From Branchiostoma floridae (Eukaryota > Chordata > Leptocardii > Amphioxiformes > Branchiostomatidae), in the NCBI RefSeq assembly GCF_000003815.2, contig NC_049993.1, forward strand, positions 11,188,778-11,252,777: DNA of 64,000 bases, given 5' to 3'. Position numbers and translations under genes: made by a program. Of the stretch, positions 26,243-60,248 are shown in pieces; the first letter of the stretch is position 1, and each line of letters begins with the position of its first letter. The notes beneath the pieces were generated by a model that saw nothing but the letters and a program-made list of their open reading frames with translations, did no database searches and was not told the origin of the DNA.

Positions 26243-29200
26243 ATGAAAAGGTACATATACGTCAGTCTTTATTTTTCAGATAGTACATGTAAATATATTT
26301 CTCGTGGTATTCTGTAGGATAGAGTATATCAAAAGAGAACGACCTGAACTGAACTGTGCGTATGATATAGATAACGTCGAAATTCGTAAGGCCACAACAC
26401 CCAGGAGCCATAAATTGAATGTAGAAACAGGAAGATACCACAATGTAACGTTAGCCCCTGACCAAAGGTTCTGCCCATTTTGCCCAAAGCAAATTGAAAA
26501 TGAATTTCATTTCGTTATGGAGTGTCCTATGTATGATATGTTACGCAATAAGTTGTTCACATTCCTATGTTTAAACAATACAGATTTTACGATATTCGAT
26601 ACCAGAAGTAGATTTTACTATATCTTTAGAGCCCTCATAATGCTAAGATAGGTAAATAAATAAATGATTGCTTTGTGATTAGAAAAGGTAGTGACACTCA
26701 TGTTTAGCCCCGCCTGATTGTATAGAGGTTTTCTAATTATCCTATATTGTTTAGTTAGTATAGAGTTTTAAGATTTATTCTGTATTCAATCACTTTTTGT
26801 TTGTAGTATATATTTCACCATACAAAAGCCACTGTACTTTCTGTCGTGTCAATAAAGCTTGCACTGTTCATGCAGGCGTGTATCATTTTTTTGGGTTTCT
26901 TGGGTCAGAGCTACTCTCCAAGCAGAGGTTGGTGAGGTAGATTGCGACCTTTTTATCATATGATCCGTTTTCTGTCCGCACTCCCTACCTGCTTGGAGAG
27001 TGCTGAAAGAAAAAGGCATTGATGGAAAAAAAAATGCCTTCCCTACTAACCTCTGCTTGGAGAGTGCGACTCGACACAATGAATGTTTTGCTTTGTAAAG
27101 CTCACTTTTACGAAGTTGCTCAGCAAGTACGACTTGGCACAGCACCATCTCTTGTCTCTTGCCAATCTCATTTGCATACGCCTCAGGTCACCAACCAATT
27201 ACACGTCAACCATAGTCTAAAGCACATCTATCATGTTCAGAAGGATAACAATGGAAGCTTCTGTCAATTTGAAACTTAGGTTACTTCCTCATACGTCACC
27301 AACTACTTTTTCATCGGCACTTCGCTTCTTTACTCGCGAATGTCCATACAACAGCAGTGTTTGTGTAATATTCGCATCACTTTGAATAAATCTGGCACCT
27401 GAAGCAATGGTGATGACTCACTTCCAATTTCCATTGACGCAAAATGTTAAGACTTGACATGTTAAGATTATGTCTATAAACACCCATCGTTTGACATAAA
27501 GGCATGTTAGTTTGTTGCTAAGGGAGCGGTCACATAGGTCGTGCGATCGTCGTACGATTTTGATGCCATAGGATTTTCAAGCAGGTCATGACAGAACTAA
27601 CCACTGACATGGATCCAAAACAGCGTTTTGGGTACCAAGACAGTTGAACTTTTCAGGATCCGTACATTTTCGTCCTCAAACATGCCCGAAGTTAGCGAAC
27701 GTACGACGATCGCACGACCTATGTGACTGCGCACTAAGTTGCTCACAGGTCTGAAAGAAGCACCGTCATACGACCCATTCAATTTTCTAGCTTACAGCAA
27801 CGTTAGATCATAGGATGAAGTGTGCTATATGATGTCTGACGTCCGGTTGGTTGAAAAATGGAAGTATGACTAGCTTGTTTTGTCCCACCAGTATAAAGCT
27901 AGCCCTCGTGTTGGCGGTTACAGCGGTGCTTGTGTGGGAGTCGCAAGCCTGGTTGTGGAATCGTCGACGTTCGACTGTCTGTAAGTATTTCACCAGACTC
28001 CAATACTTGTTGCAAAAAGCGTTAAAAAAACACCTACGCACATTGTGAACAACAATAACAGTAAAATATATTGGCATGACACTTAACTTTGGCCTACGTT
28101 ACATTTCCAAAACGCTTTCGGGAACGAGAAGCATGATATAAAAGACACCAACTATACAACACGTAGAGGGAATATTCATGGGCATTATTCGCGTAATTCT
28201 TTTTTTACACATACGTTTATTTTAATTTTTCGTTTTCACCAGTTAACAGCCCGGCCCCAGTTTTGACATGTGACGTTAGCCTAACATAATTATACCTCAT
28301 AACTCCACATTTTTCAAAATTTCCTAGCCAACCGCTGCTCGAGGCCTGTCACCTCTACCGGAGTCTCCCGTAGTGNNNNNNNNNNNNNNNNNNNNNNNNN
28401 NNNNNNNNNNNNNNNNNNNNNNNNNNNNNNNNNNNNNNNNNNNNNNNNNNNNNNNNNNNNNNNNNNNNNNNNNNNACCGGACCTGCGAGAGCGGATCGTG
28501 GTCCGGCGAGGCCTTGGTCTGCCGACGTACATGTACGTATACGTAATGCCCATCTTACATTTGAGTACATTGTACGGTAACGTTAGGCTTAGGTCCAATT
28601 GTACCTGTGTCCGTCAGGGATGTAGCCCCGCCCGGGCTCCGAAGCCACAAATTTGTCCCGGTGGACTGCCGGATACCGGAGGTACCCCTCGGTGTTCCCC
28701 ACGGGTAGGTCACGGCGTCTATTTGTTACCGGGTCCCGGGCCGAATCTAACAACGACTTAAAATGAACTCGGTCTTAAGCGTATGTCGGGAGCCGCAGGG
28801 TATCCCACGGGGCCACATAGGGGTCATGCCCGAAAGTGCAAACTGTGAACTGCCCGGCAGGGCCCCTTTGTCCAATCGGGACCGTAGCCTGATAATATTG
28901 CGGCTGGATTCCATACTTATGGTCTCTACATATATTTTGTAGCGGGTTGCTCCTCGCCGCCCTACCCGGCCGGAGCCTCGCGCAGCGGCTGCTCCTGGCC
29001 GTATGCTGAGGGGGAGGTCTGCACCTACACCTGCTACTCCGGCTGGGAGCAAACCTCCGGCAACACCACTCGGACCTGCACCAACGGCCAGTGGTCCGGG
29101 GACCTGCTCGTGTGTGAGCGGACCTCAGGTGAGTTTTCGCAGCCGACAGTGCATACAATTAGTCGGTTCACGGATAAAAATAGCGAGATAAATTGTGCCA

Positions 29201-29737
29201 TGCATTGGTGATGTATCATGGTTGAAAGCCCCAGATATATGAGCAAAATACGCCTGGACATGCCTTAAGTATGGTCTAGACGAGAACTCTTTATGAGTTA
29301 ATGATCTTCACCTTAAGCTTTGACATATTCCCCACAATGCATAACGCTGAGCATGCGCAGTTAAATCCGTGAAGTGGCTCAGTACAGCAGGAACGGACGC
29401 GGGTAGTGACAACGAAACAAAATGGCCCAGACATAAAATTTGTGAGCAAAGTCTCTACGTTCACATTCCCTACTAGTATATGGTACAACCCATCTTCCCA
29501 GCCATCAAGGTGGCTTGACTTAGTATGAAAATGCAGTTTGCTAGCGCTGTTTCTTTCAAAGGATCCCTGGCCTTTAGTCCCCGTGGTCAAAGACGTGTTA
29601 TAGAATTAGATTCTCCAAGTAACAATATTTAGAATACTACGTGATCATATCAGCTATATTGTAATGAGATGATATTGTAATATAACTGATATTATATTCC
29701 AGGATGTAGCGGCTGGTGGTCCTGGTTTTGCCGCTAA
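26243..29737 (+). CDS. sushi array gene A: secreted protein with two six-cysteine CCP domains
   Basis: Proposed exons: 26243-26250 (ATG AAA AG), 27892-27980 (signal peptide), 28328-28532 (CCP1, interrupted by a 100-N gap), 28943-29128 (CCP2), 29703-29737 (tail). After phase-2 joining of the first two, all junctions are phase 1. The signal peptide reads MKSIKLALVLAV...WESQA, followed by the mature start WLWNRRRST. CCP1 is visible only at its ends (NRCSRP and WSGEALVC). CCP2 is complete, with six cysteines and GWEQTSGNTTRTC. The last exon encodes CSGWWSWFCR, then stop. It is the shortest and most diverged member. Function is unknown; secretion is inferred. The micro-exon is inferred from its counterparts in genes B to E and is the least certain part. 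Confidence 0.78.
26300..26870 (+). mobile_element. LINE C-terminal/3' fragment in intron 1 of gene A
   Basis: The frame 26304-26651 encodes a terminal LINE segment with a zinc-finger-like CPFC...HF...C arrangement (RFCPFCPKQIENEFHF), like the C-terminus of the element at 55919-59133. It is truncated at the 5' side. The 3' part includes an AATAAA-like 'gtcaataaagc'. Confidence 0.7.
26912..27066. mobile_element. TACTCTCC-family MITE remnants
   Basis: Three end sequences are present: 'tactctccaagcagaggtt' at 26912, then 'cctgcttggagagtg' near 27001 and 'cctctgcttggagagtg' near 27062. The layout looks like a rearranged or nested copy with two right ends. Confidence 0.65.
27521..27735. mobile_element. 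MITE-like element, cgtacgac-TIR family, copy 2
   Basis: The left end 'agggagcggtcacatagg' is inverse to 'cctatgtgactgcgcact', with internal arms 'gcgatcgtcgtacg' and 'cgtacgacgatcgcacgac'. The interior closely matches copy 1. It sits in intron 1 of gene A. Confidence 0.82.
28089..28282. mobile_element. MITE, AGGCTAACGTCACATTTCC family, copy 2
   Basis: The left end 'ggcctacgttacatttcc' is inverse to the right end 'acatgtgacgttagcct'. The interior has 'gatataaaagacacca' and 'tttttcgttttcac', as in the other copies. It lies between the signal-peptide exon and CCP1 of gene A. Confidence 0.7.
28376..28475. other. assembly gap (100 N)
   Basis: A run of exactly 100 N interrupts the CCP1 exon of gene A. 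The flanks read as the 5' and 3' halves of one sushi exon. The length is probably a placeholder, so whole modules could be missing. Confidence 0.97.
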
Positions 29738-31340: not shown

Positions 31341-31360
31341 AACAATGGGAACATTTGCAT
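31341..31360 (+). promoter_or_regulatory. SOX-like/octamer block upstream of gene B
   Basis: AACAATGGGAACATTTGCAT combines a SOX-type core (ACAATGG) with an octamer (ATTTGCAT), about 90 bp before the ATG. The same block is at 38321-38340 (gene C) and, with small changes, 43519-43539 (gene D). Binding is inferred from motif resemblance only. Confidence 0.45.
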
Positions 31361-31449
31361 ATGAGGTATCTACAGAAGACTGAGACAGCCCTGAACGGCA
31401 CAGAACAGGTCAGACCGCCCCCACCTTCAACACTCTCAAGACCTTCATC

Positions 31450-34400
31450 ATGATGCGGTAGGTACAACACCTTACTTTTAACGGATTGTGACGCTTGTGT
31501 TTGGCTTTATCCAGTTGGTTTTGGCGAGGAAAGGGGAAAGAAGTCATAAGGTGATTTTTTAAAAGTTTCTATCCGTTGTAAATGCGAGAAAATGCACGTA
31601 AACGGGCCCGTTGTGATAACGTATGTTCAATCCAACATGTATGACGCAGCATATCTCGTCTGTACAAAGAGGAGCTAGATCCACAAATATTTTGATCAGG
31701 TGGCATATTTCTCCCAATCAGTAGATGACTGGGCTCCCCTACTAAATGTAAAAGCACCCCATTTTATGCAAAAGAAACTGAAACTAGAGAGGCAACATTT
31801 TCGTGAAAATGCAGAATGTTTCCCAGTGGTTTTAACGGTCACTAGTCGATCGCTAAATTCTCTTCGTAGCAACTTTTGTGATAACGCGAATCCACTGATT
31901 ACTAGTTGAGGTCTTACAGACTGTTCAAGTCCACTTATAATGTGGAACAATACCTGGATATTGACAATATTCGGCACAGGACGGCCGTCACAAAACTACG
32001 AGTCAGTTGCCACAAATTACACATCGAAACCGGAAGACATAACCGCACTCCTCTAGAACAACGAATATGTAGATACTGCAGTCTAGATAAGTTAGAAGAC
32101 GAACATCATTTTGTAGTAGAATGTAGTTTGTACAAGAAAGAGAGAGCTGAACTCTACAGACTAATAGAATCCATGTTCCCCCACTTCATACAACTAAGTA
32201 ATATAGACAAATTTATATTCCTTATGAATCTAGACAAGCCTTTACTTATAAAGCATATCTGTTCTTACATTTTCAATATCACAAAGAAACGAGAAGAAGC
32301 CGAATGTACGCAGTAGAAGACGATCCTTGAGTAGTGTAGATTCATTGTATCATTATATCATGTTGTATCATTTGTTGTGACCTGTACTAAACCCAGTGGG
32401 TATGAATGTACAATAAAGGTCTTCATTCATTCATATATACATTCACAAGCAAGCTCTGTTTCTTTACCAAAACATGCCCACAAATGCAGAACAGAAAGTC
32501 CCAAGGTTTTGGTGGGTTTGATGTTGTGGTCGCAAGACAATGTATGAGATGGCTGTTTAAAAGGAAAAAACAAAATTGAAATTTTTTTTCCCTCCGCGGA
32601 CTCGAACCCGGGTTGAGCCCTGAGCCATGCTTTACGATCCCGTTCATCCCAACAGCGGGAAAAGGAAGAACAAAAAGTCTGAAATGCGGGTTATATTCTT
32701 ATATTAAATGGATGTTTAAAAAGGGGGGGAAAAGACAACTGAAAAAACCTTCTCAACCTCGGACTCGAAACCGGGTCGATCCAGCAACAAAAGCGTTCTG
32801 AGCAGATACTCTCACCATTTTGCCACTTGGCGCGAAACATTTCTGGAACTTTAAACAGGTATACAAATGTAGTGCATAGCTTGAACAAGTCCGTTCATAA
32901 TTTCCAATATTCCAAGGTCCAATTTTCTGAAGATGATTTTATGTGAAAAGTTAGATATGACGTACCTACACAGCGAGATGATACTATATAGCTAGTTGCT
33001 TGAACTTTCACATCAAATGTGACATTACTCCCGTCTACCCGCTGCAGTGTGAGGGTGTTGCTGACCCTGGTACTGATAGCCGCTCTGCTCTGGGAGTCAG
33101 AGGCAAGGTTCTCACGGAGGTACCGTAACAGGTACTCACGGAGGTACCGTCGCACACAACCTACATGTACGTATACAAACATTGGTGCGACTTGTGAAAC
33201 ATCTTTGGATGGTTTGGAAACGTTGTTTTCTGTTTACAGATAAGCGTTTTCTGATGTACATGTAATCAGATAGCTCTGGCATGTTTGTGGGTATTTAGTG
33301 GTCGTTTCTATGTAGTTATATCCTCCGTTGGTCAGTATTGGCCATTGTAAAAACCCTCACATTAGCCCTATAGCATCGACTATCTCTATTTTTTCTCTTC
33401 CACCTCCGTCTATTTCTCTCTATTATGACTTTAAAGGGCGCACAAGGACAAAGTAGATATACGCGTGCTGCATATGGGGGGCGTCGATTCGCGATTTTTA
33501 TCTGGGAATACGACGGGAAAGGAAAAATGCCGCGAGAGGAATATATACCGGGGGGAGTGCGCCGGCCCTAGGCCTAGGAGTGTGTATTGGCTTCGGTAGC
33601 CGGCCTAGGGGTGTGTATGGGTTCGGTAGCCGGCCTAGGAGCGTGTATGGGCTTCGGTAGCCGGCCTAGGATTGTGCACTCCTATGCCGGATACACTACT
33701 TTGCCAGCTTTCGATACTATCCGATGCTACCGTAGGATCTGCTTTGAGATTACGAACTAACCACAAACTTTTGTGTTTTGTAGCCAGGTGTTCTAACCCA
33801 TGGAGAGGGCGTGGTGTCCTCCAGACCGGCTGCCTCAAGCCGTACCAGGCGGGGGAGACCTGCGGGTTCTCGTGTCAGGACGGGTACAGGCAGACTTCAG
33901 GTGACAACAGCAGGACCTGTAGCGGTGGCTCCTGGTCCGGACAACCCCTGGTCTGCGAGTACGGTACGTTTTACCATGTTTTCCTGTCTTAGTCTAAATA
34001 AGCACATGCGCGTTTAATCATCAATCAAGCAGTGACAACTATTACTTGTTACATAAGATTTTTTCAATTAACTTTTAGATACCCTGATGTTGATGTTGAT
34101 GAAGTGACCCAATGGATCTTGTGAATGGATAGGAATACAGGAAATGTTATTGTGAAAGAGAGAATTCGAAGTAAAATGTAATTTACAGGTTGCTTGACCA
34201 ATGATCTATAAGGTTTATTTTTGTAACGCTGCATGATACTTGCTTGATACAACATGCGGTTGTAATGCTCTGCTCTGCACAGCTCTGCATGACGTCATCA
34301 GCTGACTTCCTATGGTCCTTGAGTGTTGAGCCTCCTTTAGGCTAACGTCACATTTCCACAAAGGGGCCCGACCGGGCAGCTTTGGAGAACGCAATGTACG

Positions 34401-36983
34401 ATATGAAAGACAACAAAAACACAAAACGAACCAAAAATAATTCAACAGCATGTCTTAAGCACATTTATCAGCGTAAACGCTAGTTTTTCGTTCCCACAAA
34501 CAGCACGGCCGGGCCCCCGGGTAGGGAATGCGACGTAGGCCTCATCACTGACATCGGTACTCTCTGCGGTAGGCGGCAGTCTAATCTCCAAGCAGATCCT
34601 ACGGTAGCATAAGATAGTATCAAAAGCTGGCAGAGGAGTGTGTTTGGCTACCGGGAAATGTACACCTCTTGGCTGACTACACTCCTTGGCCAGTTTGGTA
34701 CTATCTTATGCCATCGTAGGATCTGCTTGGAGATTAGCGGCAGTCTTCCACATGCTATCTCTACTTATCAGCTACACCCGCCGGGACGCTGCCTTCTACA
34801 AGGTTCTTTGCCGCTTCCTTCCTCTTCATTCCTTTAATCCAAGATGCTCGACACTGTAGTACATAGAGATTTAACTAAGATATGTTCTGTCCCAGCCGGA
34901 TGTTACCGACCACCGTACACTGAGGGTTCTTGGTGGAGAGGCTGCAGCTGGCCTTTTGAGACCGGGGAGAGCTGCACCTACGAGTGTAGGGATGGACACG
35001 TGGCAGTGTCCGGGGACTCCAGCATTACCTGTCAGGACGGAGCCTGGTCTGGGACGCCGCTAAGCTGCGAGTACAGTAAGTACTGTAACAGTACTGGGTT
35101 CTTACATGTACGGCATCATGTAAACGACTCCTCAGGAAGGAGCGATGAAGATGAGATGAAGGAATGAAGAACACATTTGTGCATCATGATATACCGAATC
35201 GATGATCTTACACGTGAGAATATATGAAACACAGGAGGCAAATAGTACAGTCTCCTGGCTTCCGGGATTCGAACACGAGATCGCGCCGGACTATTAGACT
35301 GGTCAGTTGGTGGCGCTTGAACCCCACAGTTACGCTACCCACAGTTACGATGACCAGAGTCATGAAATACAAGAGGTGAATCCACGCCGAACCCGGTCCT
35401 TTGCAGAGACAGCGCCAAATAACCCAACTGTTAACATTACATGTAGATTGACTGAGGCATCCTTTCTCCTGTAGCTGGCTGTGAGCGGCCATCTTTCACT
35501 AGGGGGACCGGAGCCCGGAGTCAGGGGTGCTGGTGGCCGTACAAGAACGGGGACAGCTGCACCTACACCTGCAAGCAGGGACATTCTAGGGTGTCCGGAG
35601 ACTCCATCATCACCTGTGTGAACCGTACCTGGTCCGGGTCCCCGCTGGAGTGTCAGCGTACATGTACGTACTGCCACAATAGTCCTAGTTTAGAAGCACG
35701 TCCGCGTGCATGTGTTTTTATCGACTTACCACTTCTCGATAACAGTACAGATCGGAAGATGGTGTCGCATTTCCAAACCGGGGCCCGGCCGGGCAGCTTT
35801 CGGGAATGAAAAAGTATGATATAAAAAGCACAAAACTACACAAGACGTAAAGAGAATAGTTGTGGGCATAGTTTGTGTATATGTTTACATATACATTTCT
35901 ACTTTTCGTTTCCACAGTCCGGCCGGGCCCCGTTTGGGAAATGTGACGTTAGCCTTAGGGTGCTCTTGTGCCGTCCAGCCAAACAGCCTAGAATACATGT
36001 ACACTCAAATTCAATGGTTGTTTCTAAAACGGCCTTCTTCTTTCTTCAGCCGGTTGTGGGCCTCCATCTCGTAGCCTTGGCTACTGGGGACCCTGGACCT
36101 GCCGCTGGCCGTACGAGGAAGGGGAGACGTGCAGGTTCGAGTGCCGGCCCGGGTGGGAACAGCAGTCGGGGGAGACCACCACCACCTGCACCGGCGGGCA
36201 GTGGACTGGAGCCCCGCTGGTCTGCACCAGGAGCTCCGGCCCTGGTGTCGGTAAGAACTCTTCTTTCACCTAAGGCCATGTTGATTTAATTATATGGATA
36301 CATAAAAAAAGAAAAAGAACAAGTTTTCAACCATGCTTTAAATTTTACAAATCAACTGTATGCAAATACATGCCTTAGATTAAAATATATATATATATAC
36401 TGTGGTTACGACAATTGCAAGGTCAAAGAAGGATGTGTGAAAACAGAAATGAAGACTTTATTGTTCGATATTCAGTACTCTTGTGACTGATTATTTCATT
36501 TGTTCAACATTCCTAATGATGACCACTTAAATTTCATAATGAAATTTATTTTTGGTTGAACCTTTTTTTACTCGCACGCTCGCATCAGTTTTGAGGCTCC
36601 CAGAGGATGCCATCCATATCATCAAATCAACGTGGCCTAAATTTGCAAAACTACCTGTCTTCCATTTCTTGGACATGTCAAAGGAGAACGTACGCGTACG
36701 ACATCTGAGCCCTTGCCACTCTTAGATTCGTCTCTACATCATCTAGCAAAAGAATGAATCCATATTATCTCTCTCCATCTCTTTATATCTATAACATCGT
36801 GACGAATGGGTAGAACAGCGTAGAACCAGTTTAATTGTTGTTGAACTTGCAGTAAGAATAATAGATTGTCAAAATGATTGTTTTGCCTAAAAGTAGATGA
36901 TCTAAGAAGATACTTGCCTTATCATTGTTGTACTGATTGATGCGTTCTCAGACGCAGCCTGGTGGCGGGGCGGGAGGCGGTAA
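31450..36983 (+). CDS. sushi array gene B: secreted protein with four six-cysteine CCP domains
   Basis: Exons: 31450-31457 (ATGATGCG), 33048-33166 (signal peptide), 33784-33963, 34896-35075, 35475-35663, 36050-36250 (CCP1-4), 36952-36983 (tail). Total 909 nt, 302 aa, all junctions consensus. The signal peptide (VLLTLVLIAALLWESEA) is followed by RFSRRYRNRYSRRYRRTQPT, a strongly cationic Arg/Tyr stretch. Each CCP has the four usual sushi cysteines plus two extra ones before the TYxC/FxC element, the arrangement known from selectin sushi repeats. The last exon encodes AAWWRGGRR, then stop. Without the micro-exon, the signal-peptide frame has no ATG, which is why I place the start at 31450. The second ATG at 31453 is an alternative. 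Role unknown; extracellular binding protein is an inference from sushi domains. Confidence 0.88.
31912..32434 (+). mobile_element. 5'-truncated LINE in intron 1 of gene B
   Basis: The frame 31906-32316 encodes the C-terminal LINE segment with RICRYCSLDKLEDEHHF, a C-x2-C...H...C arrangement, ending KREEAECTQ. The 3' end 'gtacaataaaggtcttcatt' carries an ATTC tail. It is related to but distinct from the 55919-59133 element. Confidence 0.85.
32590..32655 (-). mobile_element. tRNA-derived SINE head, copy 1
   Basis: The minus strand has a B-box match (GGGTTCGAGTCC). Next to it is a poly-purine segment shared with the copy at 32700-32835. The T-arm does not pair properly, so it is not a functional tRNA gene. 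Confidence 0.45.
32700..32835 (-). mobile_element. tRNA-derived SINE, copy 2
   Basis: On the minus strand, an A-box-like 'gtggcaaaatggtgagag' precedes a B box 'ggtttcgagtcc', with tRNA-like spacing. A tail follows. It sits in intron 1 of gene B. Confidence 0.5.
33571..33672. repeat. ~32-bp minisatellite
   Basis: Three to four copies of a unit containing 'ggcttcggtagccggcctag' are in tandem just upstream of CCP1 of gene B. Substitutions distinguish the copies. Confidence 0.85.
33673..33780. mobile_element. partial TAATCTCC-family MITE
   Basis: The segment 'cgatgctaccgtaggatctg' followed by 'ctttgagatta' matches the right half of the intact element at 34582-34736, in the intron just before CCP1 of gene B. 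No left end is seen. Confidence 0.5.
34339..34542. mobile_element. MITE, AGGCTAACGTCACATTTCC family, copy 3
   Basis: The left end is the clearest in the window (AGGCTAACGTCACATTTCC) and is inverse to 'gggaatgcgacgtaggcct' at the right end. GC-rich inner arms 'ggggcccgaccgggcagc' and 'gcacggccgggcccccgg' also pair. It lies in a gene B intron. Confidence 0.78.
34582..34736. mobile_element. MITE with TAATCTCC ends and exact 9-bp target duplication
   Basis: The 155-bp element begins TAATCTCCAAGCAGATCC and ends with the inverse. It is flanked by the perfect nonamer GCGGCAGTC at 34573-34581 and 34737-34745. The end resembles TACTCTCCAAGCAGAGG, so it is probably a sister family using the same transposase. 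Confidence 0.92.
35205..35350 (-). mobile_element. tRNA-derived SINE
   Basis: The minus strand has 'tagcgtaactgtgggg' (A-box-like) and 'gtgttcgaatcccgg' (B-box match) at tRNA-like spacing, then a 3' extension. It lies in the intron before CCP3 of gene B. Confidence 0.5.
35758..35955. mobile_element. MITE, AGGCTAACGTCACATTTCC family, copy 4
   Basis: Inverse ends are 'gtcgcatttccaaaccgggg' and 'ccccgtttgggaaatgtgac'. GC-rich arms 'cccggccgggc' follow. The interior is shared with copies 1 and 2. It lies in the intron before CCP4 of gene B. Confidence 0.78.
36274..36637. mobile_element. MITE with GGCCATGTTGATT ends and TAA target duplication
   Basis: The ends 'ggccatgttgatttaatta' and 'atcatcaaatcaacgtggcc' are inverse; TAA flanks both sides (36271-36273 and 36638-36640). 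Gene C has the uninterrupted site 'cacctaaattggcgaaacta' at the same place, so this is a proven insertion after the B/C duplication. The same family is at 61786-62597. Confidence 0.92.
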
Positions 36984-37752
36984 GACGTCTTCCCGACCAA
37001 GCGTGTGGAGCCAGCAAGGTCACACGTCATGACGTCAGCTCTCATCGCTTTCTTGTGTTTTGATTGCTGTGTTTGAGCTTGATTCACAATCAACTGTTCA
37101 ACTAGTGGTGAATGTGTCACGTTCAGCATGACGTCAGCTCCCCAAGGAGTGAAGTTTGTTTTGTGAATTCGTTATTTTCGTATATAGTAAACTTGTATGG
37201 ACTGAATTGTATCTGAATCACTTACATCTGCTAAATGGAACTTTTTTAAATAGCGTTTTTAAAATAGCGATCCTATAACATGGAGACATTTTGCTGACGA
37301 GTATTTTGTTGACTATGTTGTGACTATTTCCGCCCATGCTGTTTTTATTTTATGGTTTTAGTTAACATAGAATGACATACAAACATACATGCATCTTTAT
37401 TTATCAATATTGACGTCAAAATCGTTCACGCTGCGAACTAAAACATTGTTTTCAACAAAATAACGGCAGTACTGTCATTACTGAGTGTGAGACAACACGT
37501 CCCACCTTATTCAACTGGTATTTAAGAATATAAAGTGTTTATAATCTTGTTTGTCTCGCTTCAACCTATTACATTCCTCAACACTCGTGAAAGACACTAA
37601 ACACTTAAACAGTAGACAGTAAAACAGTAAACCTATCGCATACAAATAAAACTGGATATTTGTGATAAACTGGTACAATCTGATGTGTTGAGTGAGAGTG
37701 TGAAAAAAATTCTGCTTTCTACCAAATGTATATGAAGTGTCTATAAAACAAT

Positions 37753-38320: not shown

Positions 38321-38350
38321 AACAATGGGAACATTTGCATATGACGTATC
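38321..38350 (+). promoter_or_regulatory. SOX-like/octamer/CRE-like block upstream of gene C
   Basis: The gene B block is repeated exactly and is followed by 'atgacgtatc', a CRE-like half site (TGACGT). Distance to the ATG is ~90 bp. Confidence 0.45.
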
Positions 38351-42493: not shown

Positions 42494-42797
42494 GACGTCC
42501 ACCCGACCGTGAGGCTTGGACCCAGCAACGTCACTACATCATGACGTCAGCTCTCATCGATTTCTTATGTTTTGAATACTCGTATTAGATGTTATAGCTT
42601 AATTACAATTAACAGCTCGACTAGAGATAAAAGGGTCACTTTCGTTTTTTTAATACCTTCGTGGATTGAACTGTCTCTAAATCAGTTACATTCACTAAAT
42701 GGATTATAAACGCTTCTAGTAGCATAGAGACATGTTTTGTCAACGATTATATTCTTTTCAACTTAACTCAGCTTTTTTCAAACAGTTTGCAGTAAAT

Positions 42798-46600: not shown

Positions 46601-48212
46601 AAAGAAGTAACATGTCGTATACAGACGGCTGGAGAAATTCGATATTAGGTTCATTGGTGAAACGCTACAGGATACACAGATTTATGTTCTTTCCCAGCCG
46701 GATGTGACCGACCGCCGTACACTGAGGGTTCTCGGGAAGACTGCTGGTGGCCTTACGAGAACGGGGAGAACTGCACCTACACCTGCCGTAATGGTTACGC
46801 GAGAGTGTCCGGAGACTCCGTCATCACCTGTGAGAACGGCAACTGGTCTGGGACGCCGCTGACCTGCGAGTACAGTAAGTACCGTTCTTACATCCACGCG
46901 TGTTCAAGAATGATTGATGAGGATGAGATAAAGGATTGGTAGGAGAACAACGAACACATGTGTGATCTCACTAAGATATAGATTGAGTCATGCATTCTTT
47001 CTCCTGCAGCTGGATGTGAGTGGCCACCTTTCACAAGGGGAAGCTGGAGGCAGGGATGCAGATGGCCTTACGAGAACGGGGAGAACTGCACATACACCTG
47101 CCGTAATGGTTACGCGAGAGTGTCCGGAGACTCCGTCATCACCTGTGAGAACGGCAACTGGTCTGGGACGCCGCTGACCTGCGAGTACAGTAAGTACCGT
47201 TCTTACATCCACGAGCGCTCAAGAATGATTGATGAGGATGAGATAAAAGATTGGTAGGAGAACAACGAACACATGTGTGATCTCACTAAGATATAGATTG
47301 AGTCAGGCATTCTTTCTCCTGCAGCTGGATGTGAGTGGCCACCTTTCACAAGTGGAAGCCGGAGGCGGGGATGCTGGTGGCCTTACGAGAACGGGGAAAA
47401 CTGCACCTACACCTGTCAGGAGGGTCATTCTAGAGTGTCCGGAGACTCCACCATCACCTGTGTGGACGGGTCATGGTCTGGGACTCCGCTGGAGTGCCAG
47501 CGTACCTGTACGTAATGCCACTAGAATGGTTTTGACGTCATCTTAGAAAAACGTCCGCGTGCGTACCATCAATCTTCGCTGTTGTTTGTTTCCCTCTCAA
47601 TAAAAATATGTACATTCTACAGATAAAAAGATTTAATACTGAAGGCGCTTTTACATACACTTGACTTAAAACAGGAAAACAGTTTAAAATACATGTATTT
47701 TTATGTTCCGAGTAACGCTATTATTTCCAAAACGTTTTTTGTTTTTTTCAAGCCGGTTGTGACCCTCCACCTCGTCGCTTTGGCTCCTGGGGACCTCGGG
47801 ACTGCCGCTGGCCGTACGTGGAAGGGGAGACGTGCAGGTTCCAGTGCCAGTGGGGCTGGGAGCAGCAGTCCGGGGAGACCACCACCACCTGCACCGGCGG
47901 GCAGTGGACTGGAGACCCGCTGGTCTGCACCAGGAGCTCCAGTATGGGCTTTACTTTCATTTGATCTAAAGCTAGCATCTTTCCTCCATTTCTTAAAGAA
48001 TGTTGTAACAGGAACGAAAACCTGTTAGTACCTATATCCAGCCCCGTGCCACCCCTAGCTTCAACTCTATATCATATCTATCAAAAATACATAAAACCAA
48101 TGTCTTTAACGTGACAAATGGCAAAACCAATAATAAGTAAGCAAATATTTGTCTTACCATTGATGTACTGATTTGCCTGCTCTTAGGTTGGTGGTGGCCA
48201 TGGGGGCGTTAA
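43629..48212 (+). CDS. sushi array gene D: secreted protein with five six-cysteine CCP domains
   Basis: Exons: 43629-43636 (ATGATACG), 45412-45527 (signal peptide), 46000-46182, 46698-46874, 47010-47189, 47325-47507, 47753-47941 (CCP1-5), 48187-48212 (tail). Total 1062 nt, 353 aa. After the signal peptide comes LFSWRNRRYSRRYRRTRPT. CCP2 and CCP3 are almost identical from WPYENGENC onward and their introns are near-identical too, showing a recent ~315-bp exon-plus-intron duplication. CCP1 matches the first CCP of genes C and E; CCP5 matches the last CCP of B, C and E. The tail exon encodes SWWWPWGR, then stop. Role unknown; secreted sushi protein by inference. Confidence 0.9.
46318..46548 (+). 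mobile_element. 5'-truncated LINE tail in a gene D intron
   Basis: A short C-terminal remnant (DKPSILKHICSFISIITEK) matches DKPLLIKHICSYIFNITKK of the gene B element, then 'gtgcaataaaggtcttcatt' and an ATTC tail. Gene C has the uninterrupted sequence 'cgatgatgctagacgctgtt' here, so the insertion postdates the C/D duplication. Confidence 0.85.
46750..47352 (+). repeat. recent ~315-bp tandem duplication within gene D
   Basis: Positions 46750-47037 and 47065-47352 differ at only a handful of sites and each spans a sushi exon 3' half, its donor, a full intron and the next acceptor. The intron includes 'atgattgatgaggatgagat' in both copies. Confidence 0.92.
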
Positions 48213-49733: not shown

Positions 49734-52700
49734 ATGATTCGGTATGTACAACAGCTTACATTTAACGTATTGTAGCCTTTGTGTTTGCCTTTATCGCGTT
49801 GATTTTGGTGTGGGGGAAGAAGTTTTTATAAGGAGATTTTACATGTTTTGATCCGTTTTAAATGCGAACAAATGCACGTAAACGGACCTGTCGTATAACC
49901 TGTGTTGAATCCGACTTGTATGACGCAGCATATCTCGTCTGTGCAGAAATGAGCTATAGGTTCACAAATCTTTCGATCAGGTGGCATATTTCTCTTCCCA
50001 TCATTAGATGACTGGGCTATCCTACTAAATGTAGGTGTTCCTCGTTTTATGCAAAAGAACTGCAGATATCCAACTCAGAACTACAACTTTCAGCCACAAG
50101 GAAACGATGTGCCGTGACAGGGCACTGTTCTGGCACAGAGTTCTCGCACGAATGTACGGGGGCACGGCTGAGTCTGTGTTCTGTAGCCCCCTCTCCTCTC
50201 AGACTTACATCATAAGAAGCAACTGTCTGATTTATTCGTCTCTGCAAGCGTCCGTATTTATAAGCTACTTCTAATTTTTGGTCGGATACGTTGGGCGCAC
50301 TACATTTCATAAGGATATCGATTCAATAAATCTTTGATTGACGCTCCCAGCACAAGACAAGTGCATTATTGCAGGACATTCTGATCCACTGCTTCATGTC
50401 CAGAAAAACGTATGAAAAATCATGATCATAAAATTCGACATAATACCGGCTCGGTAGACAGTGAACGACCTTTAGGACGTCCCATGTTGTAACGCCCTTG
50501 GGGCAACATTCATTATTGGGGGCCAATGCGCATTAGCCATGTCTTGTTTTGACACAAAATTGATTTTTGAAATACCGGTCTCCGAGAAGAACTGGCTGTC
50601 TGAAATAAGGTTTGTTATCGCCTTTATCACTACTGTTGTCTAACTGCTGACCGTAATCTGAGAGAAAGGATATTTGGGTGGAAGGAATCATCGCTACTGG
50701 TGTGGAACAGACCTCGAATTCACACACAACTGCACTCACAGTACTGGGCGAGCAAGTTCCAACATGAGAACGATGCCTGGGGTGTTTGGTACTGTAATCT
50801 CTTTCGTCGTAAAAGTCCATTGTTGTTGTATTTGTTTTTGACATGATTCGCCGCTTCCTGCAGCTGATTTTAAACCTGAAAACAAAATTCCTTCTCCACA
50901 AATCATTGACTTTGCCGACTTTACTACATATTGATCATTAATTGAATAAAACGTAACATTTATAACTCATCATGGCAAGTTATTATGCACGAAACTAAGG
51001 CCGACGGATGAGCCTAAAAGTGTCACAAAGGCAGTACGATTTTAGTACATGATTACACACTAGCTGTTCCCTTAAACAATTTTTTCTACCCAACAAAGAA
51101 CCATGAGTAAGTTTTGCCTTTCGAGGAAAAAAGCTTGAAGGCTTATCCGAAGTGAAGGTAACACAAATTTCAACCATTCTTTGCTTAGAAAAGAGTAGTG
51201 TCCGTTGTTCATGGCCACTCGTCATACCAGATTAAGAAGTACATCTTTATGTTCACTTGTACAAATCTTGTTAACTGGCGATGATAACAAACTGTTCGCA
51301 TTTTCCTGGGTAAATTACTTATTATCTATTTGTTGAAAATTCTTGTTGATGTTGAGGGATGCCAGACATTGCCACACTAACAAAACATGACATAACAACT
51401 CTATTCACACAGCGAATGATACTACTACATGTAGCTTCGACTTTCACAATATTATTCCTGTCTTTCCGCTGCAGCGTGCGGGTGTTGCTGGCCTTGGTAC
51501 TGATAGCGGCTCTGCTGTGGGAGTCGGAAGCAAGGTTCTCATGGAGAAACCGCAACAGTTACTCACGGAGGTACCGTCGCACACGACCTATGTGTACGTA
51601 TACAAACATTGGTACAACTTGTGCTACATCTTTGGATGATTAGTAAACGTTGTTTTCCGTTCGTAGATAAGTTATTTCGGCTATGGCCAGATCGGTCGGG
51701 CCTGTTTTGTGGGTCTTTAGTGGCCTTTTCTGCATTCGTGTCGATGGCCTCCGTATGTCAATACTGGCCATGGTAAAAGACCTATTCACACCATCAGTAC
51801 AATGTTGGCTATGGCGTATCTATGTCTTTCTTGTCTTCTCGGAGAGAAACATCAATCCGCCTGACTCATCCCTTTGTTATAAAATATTATCTCCCACTGA
51901 TTTCGATCTTTTACAGTATCACAAAGATGATCATCGTCCAGCAGTAGGTCTCTACTTTCCATAGTTGATATTCCAATCTAACATGTAATGTAATGTAAAA
52001 TGTATCGGACTCTGGGGCAACCTGCAGATATGTCTGAGGAACACGTGTAGAATCACGAACTAACCACAAACCGTCGGTGGACGTTATAAACTTCCTGATA
52101 CGTTTGATCAACTCCTGACGTAACGTATCTGCAAAATCACGTGTTAATAATATCACGTGTCTGTAACTCTCGCGAGTTTACGATCTGAACTGATTGGCCA
52201 TCAGTATTGATCCTGAAGAAGGCGACAGTGGTCGTTGAAAATTTGTTCCGTGTGTACTTTTGTGTTGGAAGAAAGTTTAGCATTGTACTATAAACCATGC
52301 TGTTTGGACTGTGTTCTGTAGCGGTGTGCTCCAACCATCCCTCTGGGTGGAGTCCGGGTGTCGTCAGTGGAATCGGCTGTAGCTACCCGTATCATGAGGG
52401 AGAGACCTGCGGGTTCACCTGTCGGGACGGGTACAGGCAGACTTCAGGTGACACCAGCAGGACCTGTAGCGGTGGCTCCTGGTCCGGACAACCCCTGGTC
52501 TGCGAGTACAGTACGTTTTACCATGGATTCCTGTTGCTTTAGTTTAAATAAGCACATGCGCGTTTAATCACATATCAAGCAGTGACAACTATAAGAATAA
52601 ATCATCCATTTGCAATTAACGTTTCTATCCTGACTTCAATCTTTTCAATGATTGCTAGACGCTAATGCTGAATTCGAAGTGACCCAATAGATCGAATGTA

Positions 52701-55700
52701 TGAATAGAGGAGCTATAGGGAAAGAAAGAAGTAGAATTTCGTACATAGATGGCTGGATCAAGGAGGCTAAGAGATTATATATTAGGTTCATTGTTGCAAC
52801 GCTACAGGATACGTATATTTATCGGTAACAGGTCGTTTCGCCACAATGTCAGTTCGCCAACGTCATTTCGCCACAAGGTAAGTCGTGTCGCAACAAGGCT
52901 CAAGTCGTTTCGCAACAAAGCACACGCCACAGTTGAATTATCTCTAAGAAGCGAGAAGAAGCTGAACTTTTGTGTTAGACTAGATTTGTGACACTTTTAT
53001 GTATGTATATATCCTGATTTGTTGTGACCTGTACTTAGCCCGGTTGGGCAAAATTGTACAATAAAGGTCTTCATTCATTCATTCTAAATGGCCTAATAGC
53101 ATTTGGAAATCTTATCCCTAACATTACTTTATCTACGATATGTTCTTTTCCAGCCGGATGTGCCCGACATCCACCGTATAGTAGGTTTTCTTGGCGGAAA
53201 GGATGTTTCTATCCTTACGAGAGCGGAGAGAACTGCACCTACGAGTGTAGGGATGGATACACGGCAGTGTCCGGAGACTCTGTCCTCACCTGTAGGGACG
53301 GAGCCTGGTCTGGGACAATGCTGACCTGCAACTACAGTAAGTCACGTTCTTAAAGGGGCATTCCACTCCAAAAGCGAGTGTTATTTTCTGATAGATAATA
53401 TTTGTCGAGGTACAAATCCACCCGATTTTGGCTAGATTACCTCACCGAGTCATCTGTCTTTTCGGCAATAATCCTTTTCTAGATCCAAGTACGCCCATAC
53501 AGATCCACTTCTAATGTACTGTGCCGTATATGATTATGCTTGAATAGCCAACTTCCGTCACACTTTCTCGCTAACGGTAGTCGAGATAAGCAGTGAATGC
53601 TAGGACAAGGTCACAGGTTGTTTCGCAACAATGTCAGTTCGCAACCGTCAGTTCGCATCAAGGCAAGTCTTCGCAACATTTACAAATTACAAGTCTTTTC
53701 GCAACAAGGTACAAGTCGTTTTGCAACATTTGAATGTTATTAATTTTGATAGCCTTGTAGTATTAGAAATCGTTTACGTATTCCTAACATAATTATACTC
53801 CTACCTGTGCACGTATGAAACTGTACCGCCCGGCGCATGAAAATCATCGGACTGTCAGGTCCATGCGGCGCCATGTTCCTCTGCCGCCGGGGTTGTCTTT
53901 TGCACCCGGTAAAAGTTTTACGCGAAAGGAGTATAATTATGTTAGGAATACGATTTCTAATACTATTAGGCTATCAAAATTAATAACACTCAAATGATGC
54001 GAAACGACTTGTACCTTGTTACGAAAAGACTTGCCTTGTTGCGAACTGACGGTTGCGAACAGACATTGTTGCGAAACAACCTGTTACCCTAGGACAATGG
54101 ACACACGTGTAAACCAACTCGATGATCTCACTAAGATATAGGTTGACTCGGGCATTCTTTCTCACGCAGCTGGATGTGATCACTTACCGTACACTAGGGG
54201 CACCAGTAAATCGGGATGCTGGTATCCTTACGTGAACGGAGAGAGCTGCACCTACACCTGCAGGAATGGTTTCTCTAGAGTGTCCGGAGACCCCAGTATC
54301 ACCTGTCAGAACGGTACCTGGTCCGGGGCTCCGCTGACCTGCATGTACAGTAAGTACCTTGATGCCATGCCGCTGTAAAACATCTACATTTGCTATGTCA
54401 TACGTACCACGGTTAGTTACCGAATGGAACAAGCTTGATGTCACCGTTCTTAACATAGGGGCTGTGTCGTCACATCGGTCCGATTTATCGCCTTTCAAAC
54501 AGATTCTTGTGATATCTGTTGTTGACAGATACAGAAGTCACTTTGTATCCGATAACCTCTGTACCTGGTCTGCTGAGTGTAAGTGCGCCTCCTGCTAGGA
54601 TTAAATGGCTCGGTAGTCGGTACTCGATTGATTATGTCGACGTTCATCAGTATCTTAATCTGTACCCATTGTATTTTATGTTGGGGCGAGATCTAGCAAA
54701 AGTGCTACCACCTGCACATGTTCTCTCATCCATTCCACTTGTGCGGTGAATTTCAATAAACAAATAAACAAATACTGCACTGCACTGCTGCATATAAACA
54801 ACGCCTCAAGAAGAAGCAATGGGAATAAGGTGAAGGAATAATAGGAGGACACCATGCCACTGCATGCATGGTACGGTAAACCGACTTGATGATCTTACTA
54901 AGGACAAGGGCATTATATATGGTCTTGCTTAGATATATATTGACACGGGCATTCGTTCTCATGCAGCCGGGTGCAAACGACCACCGTCCACTGAAGGTAC
55001 TTCGCGGACAGGATGCAGGTGGCCTTTCGAGACCGGAGAGAATTGTACCTATACCTGCAGGAATGGTTACTCTAGAGTGTCCGGAGACCCCAGCATCACC
55101 TGTAGGGACCGAGCATGGACCGGGACTCCGCTGACCTGCGAGATCAGTAAGTACTGTACCGTACTTCGTTCTAATATGAAGTTGTTGTTGGCATCCGTCT
55201 GTCTCAGGAGACAATGGTAGGCAGACAGTTACTCGCCGTCGTGGGTTAGGCGACTCGTCTGCCTGGCCTGCACGTGACTTTTTAAGGTCAAGGTGGGGTG
55301 TGCACTTCCTTCTCCACCCTCTCGTCTACTGGCGCACTAAGTCCTACAGGGCCAAGAACTGCATGCCACGCACGTGTAAGACGGCCCCAGCAGATGTAGA
55401 TTTGTTGTTTGGAGTTTCCGTCTCCAAGGAGGACTTTGGACCAATGATGCAAGGGGTTCCCCCTACCCCTGACTCGTGTATAGCGTGTGCGTCATGCCCC
55501 TAAGGCCTGCCACTGCCAATAACCTAATATGTACTGCCGCATATAAACTACTCCCCATGAAAGAGCGATGAAGATGAGGGGAAGGAATAATAGGACAAAG
55601 AACACACATGCATATGCATAGTAAACCGACCTGATGATGTTACTTAGATATATCTTTTCATTCAAGGGAGTTTTGATATATTTACTCGGTCACTCATGCA

Positions 55701-58700
55701 GCTGGATGTGAGCGGCCACCGTCCACTAGTGGAAGCTGGGGCCGGGGATGCAGGTGGCCTTACGAGAACGGAGAGAACTGCACCTATACCTGCTGGAGTG
55801 GACACTCCAGAGTGTCCGGAGACTCCACCATCACCTGTGTGAACCGTACCTGGTCTGGAACCCCGCTGCAGTGCCGACGTACCTGTACGTACTGCCACAA
55901 TAATCCTGGCATTATAGCAACCTCGGCGAAATATTGGTAGGAGGTGATCTGAATGCACGAGTAGGAACTCTGCCCGACTATATTACAGATGACACCCCTA
56001 TAGACTCTCAAACCCTTCCCGTAAATTACGACTTCGACCATCCCCTCCCTAGGGCCAATATGGACGAAGGGCCTGTTAATGTTTTTGGAAAAAATCTGAT
56101 TGACTTATGTATAAATAGTAAAGTAAGAATTTTAAATGGGAGAACCCCAGGGGACATGTTTGGAAAACCGACATGCCACCAGCCAAAAGGTTTTAGCTTA
56201 GTAGATTATGTGTTAGGCAGTGAAAATATTCTTCTTCGCAAAACTACGTTTTTCCATGTTCATGAGTTAACTCCATACTCGGACCATTGCAAGCTCTCAT
56301 TAATATTGCAATCTAACTCGAAACCACCTCTTAAAAAAGAAACAAGTTTACCCTCCCGACCACACTACAAGTTCATCTGGGACAACGATTCCAAAGAAAA
56401 ATTTTCCGACACGCTAAATTCCTCGGAATTTACCTCTAGTATTAGCTTGTTTATGACCAAAAACTACGAAAAGACTCCACAATCACTAGACATGGCATTG
56501 AATGATTTTGTAAATCCCCTACAAAAAAGCAGGTCAAAAGTGCTTATCCCTACGTTGCTCGAAAAAACAACGAGGGAAATGTAAAAATCAACAAGACAGG
56601 AAGAAATGGTTCAACAAGACATGTGCGTCCGCCAGACGTGAGCTGCATAACTTAGCCAAGCTGTTATCAAACAATCCACGCGACCCATTTATTAGAGGCT
56701 CTTACTTCGTCAAGAAAAAGCAGTATACAAGACTTATACGAAAAACTAAAAAAGATTATAAAGATGGTATTTTCAAACAACTCAGCTCCTTCTCTAGTGA
56801 CAAGCCCGCAGCCTTCTGGACACTTTTGAAAAACTACAAATCAAATGACACAACTTCAACTCAGGGGACAATTCCCGACGAATCTCTCCATTCACATTTC
56901 AAAAGCCTGTATGGAGAGAATGCTCGACTCAATGCCCCAGAACCCCCTAGCACTAGTGGTTTCGAAACTCATATCAAAGGTAAATTATTAGAGCTAGAAG
57001 ACGCGATAGTAAACAATGACTTAGACTTGCCGATACAGAGGAACGAAATAAAGCTAGCGATCTCAAACCTCAAGAACGGTAAAGCCTCGGGCAGAGACTT
57101 GGTTCTCAATGAAATGCTCAAATGCTCCCCTCACATCCTCATTGAGCCACTTACCAAATTATTCAACTTGTTCCTGTCGTCTGGTTATTTTCCCCAGGAG
57201 TGGTGTAATAGCCACATTGTCGCCCTACATAAGGGCGGGGCAAAAGATGACCCCAATAACTATAGAGGGATATCAGTAACCAGCTGTTTGGCCAAGCTAT
57301 TTACATCTATTCTAAACTCTCGCCTCACCACTTTCCTAGATGAAAATAAACTTATATCTCCCAATCAAGCTGGCTTTAGAAGCAAATTCAGAACGAGCGA
57401 TAACCTGTTCGTTATTGATACACTTTTAAGCAAATATCTTACAGATAATAAACGTCTTTATTCGTGTTTTGTTGACTTTAAAAAAGCCTTCGATTTGGAG
57501 AGAGGGTCTCCGTTATAAATTGTTAGAGTCAGGAGTGGGCGGTAATTTCTATAAGCTTATTAAATGTATGTACTCAAAACCCCTGACATGCGTCAAAACA
57601 TCGTCTGGTTTAACGCCATCATTTGCAACCGAGAAGGGTGTCAGGCAAGGCTGTAACCTTAGCCCTACACTCTTTAACCTTTTCATAAACGACCTTGTAC
57701 ATGTACTTGATAATACTGAATGCTCACCACCCTCCCTACATAACCTGTTTGTATCATGCCTCTTATACGCAGATGATGTTGTTATTTTTTCTGAGTCCGA
57801 TAAAGGACTTCAAATTGCCCTGAATAGATTGAGCGACTTTTGTACGAAATGGAAATTACAAGTCAATTTAAAGAAAACAAAAGTCATTATCTTCAACAAA
57901 TCTGGCCGATCATTCCCAAAACAAACATTCTCTTTTGGGCAAGACACAGTTGACATAGTCCAGTCCTACTGCTACTTGGGCTTGAATATTACTGCATCAG
58001 GCAGTTTCTCTCTTGCACAAAAACAGCTCTCACTCAGAGCACGAAAGGCCATGTTCAGTCTCAAATCGCTACTCCGTTCGTCTGTCTCTCCGAAGTGCCT
58101 ACTAAGAATATTCGACACTTGTATTAAACCAATACTTCTGTATGGATGCGAAATCTGGGGTAAAGACCCTATAAATGACACCTCACCTATTGAAAATTCC
58201 CATAACCGCTTCTGCAAGAATGTACTTGGTGTGCACAGGAACAGTAGTAATGTAGCAGCCAGAGCAGAACTAGGAAGGTTCCCACTAGATTTAGATATAT
58301 CCCTGCGCACTGTAAAATTCTGGACACACTTAACACAACTAGACTCCGATACACACCCGCTGCAAGTTGATGCTCTCCGATTACAACATGCATCTCTGAC
58401 AAATAGTCGTCGACGGACATTATTACAGCGAGTTAAGGAGATCTTCGATCACTGTGGCTACTCATACTTATTATATGGTGATAGCACTAACTATGATCCT
58501 CAACATATATGCAATCTATTAAGGACAAGGTTTTCAGATATGTATATTCAAACTTTCTTCCATAATCTGTCTGCCGATACTGGCAAGCTTAGATTTTACA
58601 GAAAATTTAAAACCGAATATTGTATAGAGAAATATCTCGAACTTTGTGACTCTGAGCAGCGTTCAGCTACCAGTAAGATTAGAATTAGTGCCCACCCCCT

Positions 58701-60248
58701 GGAAATAGAAAAGGGGAGATATATGAAGCTACCTGTGTCCGAGAGGATTTGTAAATATTGCCCCTCAAATGCTGTGGAAGACGAGAGTCATTTTATCACT
58801 AATTGTTCTTTTTATGATGATATAAGAAACCAACTATTTATGAGTGTATCCAAAATACACGCTTACTTTCCAACTATTCCTGACAATGAAAAATCAATCC
58901 TACTATTAAAATCAAAGAACCCACACATTATAAAAGAAGTGGGTAAATTCGTCTTCCACTGCCTAAAGAGAAGAAGTCTAACCCAACAAAACCAGTATAA
59001 TGTACACTAGCATAGCATAGTCATAGAATGTAGTTCCTAGCACCTTTGTATTTTTGCTTATTCTACATGTTGTTTGTACCTGCAATTAGCCCTCGGGCAA
59101 GAACTTGCAATAAACATATCTATTGTTATTATACACTATAATAGTTTTGACGTCATCTCAGAATAACGTCTGCGTGCGTACCATTAAGATCTCCGCTGTT
59201 GTTTGTTACCTTCTCAATAAGGATATGTACAGATCAAAAGATTTGATATTCGAAGGTCTCTTATATGCTCTTAAAGCAGTAAAACAGTTTAAGATAAATG
59301 TATGTTTATGTTATAACGCTATTATTTCCAAAACTTTTCTTGAAGCCGGTTGTAGCCGCTCTCCACCTCGTCGCTATGGCTCCTGGGGACCCCGGGACTG
59401 CGGCTGGCCGTACGAGGAAGGGGAGACGTGCAGGTTCGAGTGCCGGTATGGGCATGAGCAGCGGTCCGGGAACACAACCACCACCTGCACCGGCATGGAG
59501 TGGACTGGAGACCCGCTGTTCTGCACCAGGAGCTCCAGTAAGGACTCTTCTTACATCTGATCTAAAGTATCTTTCCTCCGGATCCATTTCTTGAAATTGT
59601 CGTAAGAGGAACGAAAACCTGTTAGTAGCTATTTCGACGCCCGTGCCATCTCTACATTATCTATCAGAAATAGATAAAACCAAGATCATCCTTTGTCCTT
59701 AACGTGACAAATGGCAAAACCAATCACAAATTGTTTTGTTTTGTTTTATTTATTTTACCAGGGGTAACATATAGCCTTTTCTAGGCACTTTCCAAAGTGC
59801 ATACATATCAAATGAAATAAGAAGTAACATAACATGAGAAAATTAGCTTTGACGTATGCCCATCAATACAAATCATAGCAACTTAGGAATAACCAATACA
59901 TAATATCATTCTACGATACAAGTAAATCAAAATTGCAATGTTAACATAATATGACCGAAAACAAAAGTAGAATGAAATGAGAAGGGAAATGAATTTGCAT
60001 ATCAATGTGAAATAAAAAGACTTAATGGATAACAGTTCAAACAATATTATGATGTTCCCTTGAGTACTTTGTTTTAAAAGTACTGGTTGATGTAGCTGCT
60101 ATATGTGAGGGTAAGGAATTACATAGAATTGCGCCAGAACCAACAAAATGTTATCGAACTTGCAAATGGGTTAAAACGATTGTCTTATAGTTGTCTTATC
60201 ATTGATGTACTGATTGATGTGTTCTCAGACTGGTGGTATGGGCGTTAA
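49734..60248 (+). CDS. sushi array gene E: secreted protein with six six-cysteine CCP domains
   Basis: Exons: 49734-49741 (ATGATTCG), 51475-51593 (signal peptide), 52322-52510, 53154-53336, 54170-54349, 54967-55146, 55702-55884, 59346-59537 (CCP1-6), 60229-60248 (tail). Total 1254 nt, 417 aa. After the signal peptide (VLLALVLIAALLWESEA) comes RFSWRNRNSYSRRYRRTRPM. CCP1 has YRQTSGDTSRTC, CCP2-5 are the ENC/ESGENC-type middle modules, and CCP6 is the terminal type (YEEGETCRFEC). The tail exon encodes NWWYGR, then stop. Most introns carry transposon insertions, the largest a 3.2-kb LINE between CCP5 and CCP6, yet every splice junction and frame is intact. Function unknown. Confidence 0.9.
52824..52920. 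mobile_element. partial relative of the 53609-54088 element
   Basis: 'ggtaacaggtcgtttcgcca' and 'gtcagttcgcc' resemble the left TIR of the element at 53609. It is cut short where a LINE tail begins. Confidence 0.6.
52921..53088 (+). mobile_element. 5'-truncated LINE tail in a gene E intron
   Basis: It begins within the final codons of the LINE frame (KKREEAELLC then stop, as in the gene B copy) and ends 'gtacaataaaggtcttcatt' plus ATTC repeats. Confidence 0.85.
53609..54088. mobile_element. 480-bp MITE with GGTCACAGGTTG ends and 9-bp target duplication
   Basis: Ends 'ggtcacaggttgtttcgcaa' and 'ttgcgaaacaacctgttacc' are inverse, and long inner arms ('ttaggaatacg', 'attaataacactcaaatg') pair over more than 150 bp. 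The exact nonamer CTAGGACAA flanks it at 53600-53608 and 54089-54097. No transposase frame is present. Confidence 0.92.
54362..54780 (+). mobile_element. LINE C-terminal fragment with AAATAAAC tail
   Basis: The frame 54359-54598 contains YVPRLVTEWNKLDVTV followed by SPFKQ, resembling the extreme C-terminus of CR1/L2-type LINEs ('PR...WN.LP...FK'). The end is 'caataaacaaataaacaaat'. It lies in the CCP3-CCP4 intron of gene E. Confidence 0.6.
55180..55505 (+). other. unrecognised insertion in a gene E intron
   Basis: This segment has no counterpart in the matching introns of C and D. It includes a 67-codon frame (55300-55503) with Cys-rich ends (CMPRTCKTAP, CIACASCP). I do not recognise it. It could be a decayed transposon fragment. 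Confidence 0.3.
55919..59133 (+). mobile_element. 5'-truncated APE-type LINE in the CCP5-CCP6 intron of gene E
   Basis: It begins inside the apurinic-type endonuclease (VGGDLNARVG; later YSDHCKL). The reverse transcriptase follows, with NYRGISVTS, FVDFKKAFD, GVRQGCNLSPTLFN and the catalytic YADD, then a C-terminal CKYC...HF...C motif. The frame is broken twice: near 56575, between endonuclease and RT, and near 57490, just after KKAFD, where a few bases seem lost. The 3' end is AT-rich after 'gcaataaacatat'. Introns of genes C and D show the uninterrupted site ('cactagaatggttttgacgt'). It is inactive. The clade (CR1/L2/jockey-like) is not assigned. Confidence 0.92.
59731..60190 (-). mobile_element. 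retrotransposon 3' end, minus strand
   Basis: Compared with the matching gene D intron, gene E has ~450 bp extra. On the minus strand it ends in 'taaaataaataaaacaaaac', an A-rich tail, which points to a truncated LINE or SINE. No coding motif is visible. Confidence 0.55.

Follow-up and report, generated by a model that had tools for sequence, protein, structure and literature searches.

A cluster of five head-to-tail predicted genes for secreted sushi proteins lies on the plus strand of Branchiostoma floridae contig NC_049993.1, at positions 26243-60248 of the stretch analyzed here (64,000 nucleotides (nt), hereafter the window, whose coordinates are used throughout). Each of genes 1-5 follows one plan: the start exon is followed by an exon for the signal peptide, then by the sushi exons and finally by a short terminal exon rich in Trp. 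The models, which were rebuilt from the 64-kb window, contain no internal stops. The sushi modules number 2, 4, 4, 5 and 6 in genes 1-5, respectively, and every module comprises ~60 amino acids (aa) encoded by a single exon. The preliminary description of this DNA had claimed such tandem genes with 2-6 modules, each with its own start micro-exon, signal exon, sushi exons and stop in consistent phase. The rebuilt models confirm that observation, their four complete proteins have exactly the lengths given before (302, 290, 353 and 417 aa), and the genes look real from their sequence. That these are tandem but separate genes belonging to a single family of secreted sushi proteins is supported by the models, the exon lengths, an alignment of the start blocks, a shared 10-mer and a tree of the modules.

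26243..29737, plus strand: gene 1; exons 26243-26250, 27892-27980, 28328-28532 (sushi, with a 100-N run), 28943-29128 (sushi) and 29703-29737 (tail CSGWWSWFCR); TTTGCATATG at 26118
31450..36983, plus strand: gene 2, 302 aa; exons 31450-31457, 33048-33166, 33784-33963, 34896-35075, 35475-35663, 36050-36250 and 36952-36983; 4 sushi modules; tail AAWWRGGRR
38429..42493, plus strand: gene 3, 290 aa; exons 38429-38433, 40221-40318, 40723-40902, 41174-41353, 41542-41724, 41970-42176 and 42474-42493; 4 sushi modules; tail AGWWNGR
43629..48212, plus strand: gene 4, 353 aa; exons 43629-43636, 45412-45527, 46000-46182, 46698-46874, 47010-47189, 47325-47507, 47753-47941 and 48187-48212; 5 sushi modules; tail SSWWWPWGR
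49734..60248, plus strand: gene 5, 417 aa; exons 49734-49741, 51475-51593, 52322-52510, 53154-53336, 54170-54349, 54967-55146, 55702-55884, 59346-59537 and 60229-60248; 6 sushi modules; tail SNWWYGR

The models were assembled by comparing the five copies with each other and by reading the sequence. The splice sites were chosen by eye, always at GT and AG, which means that the models partly presuppose the GT-AG rule; they do not presuppose the shared phases or the multiple-of-three length differences. All five start exons (8, 8, 5, 8 and 8 nt), all five signal exons (89-119 nt) and all five tail exons (20-35 nt) have lengths of 2 modulo 3. The length of the sushi exons is 0 modulo 3 in 20 of 21 cases, and the exception is the gene 1 exon in which the 100-N run (28376-28475) interrupts the first module. 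This exon-length arithmetic supports the models independently of the splice-site choice. A six-frame pattern scan of the window gave 22 matches, 20 of which are complete modules located at 28.9-59.5 kb and exclusively on the plus strand; the other two, at 21111 (plus strand) and 12588 (minus strand), were judged by eye not to be sushi. With the interrupted first module of gene 1, which was picked up by a profile search, the total comes to 21 sushi modules. An AATAAA or ATTAAA poly(A) signal follows the stop within 1.5 kb in four of the five genes.

Are start exons of 5-8 nt credible? A mechanical scan upstream of the signal exons, which looked for start codons that are in the right phase and have a good donor, recovered the starts of genes 1 and 4, offered additional unshared candidates for genes 1, 2 and 5 and found none for gene 3. 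Moreover, a start exon of at most 8 nt with a passable donor occurs in 16% of 386 random 2-kb stretches from the flanks (400 drawn, 14 dropped for N). The scan was superseded by an alignment of genes 2-5 over a repeated block that precedes their signal exons. The starts of these genes (ATGATGCG, (ACG)ATGCG, ATGATACG and ATGATTCG) occupy the same place in this conserved block and precede GTAGGT in genes 2-4 and GTATGT in gene 5. The first intron that follows is 1590-1787 nt long in genes 2-5 and 1641 nt long in gene 1. Thus, the start micro-exons are weak when taken alone, and the alignment supports them.

31353..31457, plus strand: block upstream of gene 2 that holds both ATTTGCATATGAG and the start exon; copies of the motif stand at 38333 (gene 3) and 43532 (gene 4), and it is partly lost before 49734 (gene 5)

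The upstream block of genes 2-4 also contains ATTTGCATATGA. The 10-mer TTTGCATATG occurs four times on both strands of 264 kb (at 26118, 31354, 38334 and 43533), each time shortly before a start: 125 nt for gene 1, 96 nt for gene 2, 95 nt for gene 3 and 96 nt for gene 4. The expected count in 264 kb is ~0.5 at equal base use and somewhat more in AT-rich DNA. Gene 5 retains only TGCATATGACG of the 10-mer. ATTTGCAT is the octamer bound by POU proteins. The start exon of gene 1 differs from the starts of genes 2-5. The presence of TTTGCATATG ahead of the starts of genes 1-4 is the best evidence both for a genuine start exon in gene 1 and for the copies being separate genes. A single transcript that spans all five genes is unlikely, given that every model has a start and a stop of its own and that genes 2-5 share both the start block and a stretch after the stop. 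This conserved stretch directly follows the stops of genes 2-5 (36984-37050, 42494-42560, 48213-48280 and 60249-60315) and carries the palindrome TGACGTCA in three of them and TGACGCCA in gene 5.

Sequence conservation among genes 2-5 sets exons apart from introns in part of the gene. The signal exon is 82-88% identical, compared with 59-83% for the next 100 nt, and the last sushi exon is 83-92% identical, compared with 58-91% for the 100 nt before it and 51-78% for the 100 nt after it. The corresponding values are 77-83% for the first sushi exon and 52 to 91% for the next 80 nt. These ranges make the exon-intron contrast clear around the signal exon and the last sushi exon and not elsewhere.

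The encoded proteins are predicted secreted Sushi/CCP proteins, a variant of a very common protein type. The Pfam Sushi profile (PF00084) matches all four complete proteins with expectation values (E) of 5.6e-18 to 2.4e-30 (65.5-105.1 bits, with a cut-off of 20.7), and the Sushi fold was also recovered. At E up to 1, Pfam returned for these four proteins only Sushi and, in one protein, a sub-threshold Antistasin match (E 0.4). The modules contain six invariant cysteines, not four, in 20 of 20 complete cases, and the extra pair is missing from the eight ordinary sushi modules of the same genome that were compared. Neither this cysteine pair nor the upstream block had featured in the preliminary description, which had pointed to a cationic Arg/Tyr/Trp head and a Trp-Trp tail. 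The two ends hold up as predicted protein sequence: the heads are rich in Arg and aromatic residues and contain RR sites, and four of the five tails end in WW...GR or GRR, the fifth (gene 1) being WWSWFCR. Each protein carries 1 to 7 N-glycosylation sequons.

The family was probably formed by duplication of whole genes from an ancestor with four modules, A-B-C-D, and by later copying of middle modules, because the 20 complete modules group largely by position in the tree. The D modules of all five genes, the A modules of genes 2-5 and the last middle modules of genes 2-5 each form a group. Gene 4 illustrates this later copying with its 315-bp tandem copies. Gene 1 stands well apart from the others (synonymous divergence, dS, of 1.4-2.0 in the last module), and we infer that it is the most diverged copy. 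Among genes 2-5, dS is 0.08-0.13 for the last modules versus 0.29-0.61 for the first modules, and this difference suggests recent exchange among the 3' halves of these genes.

How does the cluster relate to known sushi proteins? Statements on novelty rest on Pfam, PDB and the open-licence literature. The cluster shares the module profile, the fold and the arrangement of modules in a row with Sushi/CCP/SCR proteins (PF00084) such as complement factor H, CD55 and CR2, and differs from them by two additional invariant cysteines per module, a short charged head and a Trp tail. The PDB matches considered are the best 60 of 70 rows for gene 5, the best 60 of 85 and of 90 rows in two other lists and 29 of 29 rows in the fourth; among these rows, the best sequence matches are factor H, factor XIII B, CR2 and CD55. 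The short consensus repeats of selectins display a six-cysteine pattern. The lectin and EGF domains of selectins left no trace in the Pfam matches of the four complete proteins, and no selectin appears among the PDB sequence matches listed. E-selectin (4c16) emerged solely as one fold match among many, and kinship with selectins by sequence was rejected on the rows listed.

Beta-2-glycoprotein I carries its binding parts inside a modified fifth module, whereas the cluster places separate ends on separate exons. The modified last module of beta-2-glycoprotein I, with its insertion, C-terminal extension and added disulphide to a C-terminal cysteine, has no counterpart in the cluster: the last module of genes 2-5 has no large insertion and no cysteine after the sixth, and the gene 1 tail has two cysteines (ending in FCR) and no insertion. 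The TGM proteins of Heligmosomoides polygyrus are likewise a secreted multi-sushi gene family, and some of their modules contain six cysteines; according to PMC10516467, their modules consist of ~80 aa and are encoded by two exons each, in contrast to the ~60-aa, single-exon modules of the cluster models. The available portions of open-licence papers on sushi, CCP or short consensus repeats in amphioxus or Branchiostoma, or on six-cysteine repeats, contain no description of this family. Within that literature, the earlier impression of an undescribed plan was not contradicted; the modules belong to the very common Sushi/CCP type.

What is the biological function of these proteins? We tentatively propose, from the predicted sequences, that they may be surface-coating or bridging proteins in which a sushi rod holds two sticky ends. 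The preliminary description had suggested, from the tandem expansion with variable ends, that the role may be of an immune, adhesion or gamete type; no feature of the window decides for or against it. The sushi string would act as a spacer that is stiffened by the extra disulphide of each module and that carries the two surface-binding ends. By attaching to anionic surfaces (bacterial envelopes or acidic glycans, for example) through its Arg/aromatic head and its Trp tail, the protein would coat or cross-link particles in mucus or body fluid. The range of targets would be widened by copies that differ in rod length and in their ends. We infer this mechanism weakly; its precedent is beta-2-glycoprotein I, of whose family the proteins are not members. 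According to PMC6698853, a Lys-rich patch of beta-2-glycoprotein I sets its affinity for anionic lipids, a Trp-containing loop can insert into membranes, and both insertion into bacterial membranes and binding of lipopolysaccharide are reported for this protein.

Several observations weigh against the proposed genes and their function. No homologue of known function was found in the sources searched. The predicted mature net charge (+6 for gene 1 without its unread part, then +11, -5, -1 and +13 for genes 2-5) is not uniformly positive. The tail exon is 50-90% identical among genes 2-5 and thus less conserved than the 100 nt downstream of the stop (73-90%); apart from W-W and G-R, conservation of the tail sequence is not strong. 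The ratio of nonsynonymous to synonymous divergence (dN/dS) does not support the positive selection expected of a pathogen-facing protein. Raw ratios in the last module look high (0.65-1.89 among genes 2-5) and cannot be distinguished from neutral, with none of six pairwise tests being significant, and positive selection on this module was thus rejected. Outside the last module, dN/dS is below 1, and in the first module three of six tests show fewer replacement changes than expected, that is, constraint. Moreover, support in the module tree is low (one of 17 inner branches starred, six drawn open), and gene 4 has no poly(A) signal within 1.5 kb after its stop.

A structural role comes next to the coating and bridging proposal in plausibility. 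It is possible, if rather doubtful, that sushi rods with sticky ends form a gel or coat as a gamete-coat or mucus matrix protein, with no recognition of microbes. Such a role accords with proteins that are predicted to be secreted, repetitive and cysteine-rich, with their sequons and with tandem copies that differ in rod length.

We consider it unlikely that the proteins are secreted precursors of small peptides, in which the head would be cut at basic sites and the Gly-Arg or Gly-Arg-Arg tail would be trimmed and C-terminally amidated. A Gly-Arg or Gly-Arg-Arg end is a classical amidation signal, and it is found in four of the five tails, along with RR sites in the heads. However, gene 1 ends in WFCR, without Gly at that place, and a large sushi body is unusual in a peptide precursor. 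A role as a complement regulator or C3b-binding protein, as in many vertebrate multi-sushi proteins, is equally unlikely. The best solved-structure matches among the rows listed are indeed complement or clotting proteins, but such matches follow from the module type alone. In the inspected part of the alignments with factor H and factor XIII B, no cysteine lies opposite the two extra cysteines, and the best stretches of gene 5 (best 60 of 70) run from residue 40 to residue 355, so that the tail and almost the entire head have no match. Finally, it is improbable that the gene models are partly wrong, with other first or last exons in real transcripts or with some copies dead: an 8-nt start exon that on its own is not beyond chance, the N run in gene 1 and the missing poly(A) signal of gene 4 would fit this view, but the start block kept in genes 2-5, the 10-mer common to genes 1-4 and the length differences in multiples of three argue against it.

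The cluster lies in a 21.5-Mb contig of a 513.4-Mb assembly with 431 contigs. This genome is rich in sushi modules, with 2222 first-look candidates, of which 150 were scored. A profile search of 100 kb of flank on each side found no further family member; next to the window, ~3.7 kb of the left flank consists of N, and the only other sushi frame in these flanks is of the ordinary type and scores at most 21.5 bits. An uninterrupted 2423-aa frame of ordinary sushi repeats is located on the same contig at window-relative positions 156473-163741, ~96 kb downstream of gene 5. Retroelement frames occupy part of the seventh intron of gene 5 and do not belong to the gene product.

56514..59010, plus strand: retroelement frames with reverse transcriptase, located in intron 7 of gene 5 (3461 nt); two frames that overlap each match RVT_1

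The frame 55904-56584, which precedes the RVT_1 frames in this intron, has no Pfam match. Two other frames, 26247-26651 and 31906-32316, resemble the C-terminal end of this retroelement by eye and likewise lack a Pfam match; the former overlaps the start exon of gene 1 by 4 nt. Elsewhere in the window, a gene for a TGF-beta family ligand lies on the minus strand at 10696-15164; its mature domain is encoded in frame 10696-11517 (Pfam E 1.6e-30), and frame 14562-15164 gives a propeptide-like match that stays below the curated cut-off. Five arrays of ~162-bp tandem repeats, mutually related by eye, are found at the left end (100-5128).

In the most far-reaching reading, the family would be a set of lancelet-specific secreted effectors, in which a six-cysteine sushi rod holds a processed Arg/aromatic head peptide and a C-terminally amidated Trp-Trp tail, tandem-diversified under one shared promoter type so that bridging or membrane-attacking proteins of different reach are made together; we regard this combination as a long shot. 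If the ends do bind microbes or are amidated peptides, the family would represent a new effector design; otherwise, it would be one more sushi expansion. The cluster is a compact, testable case for the side-by-side comparison of genes that share an upstream block and a common plan and vary in rod length.
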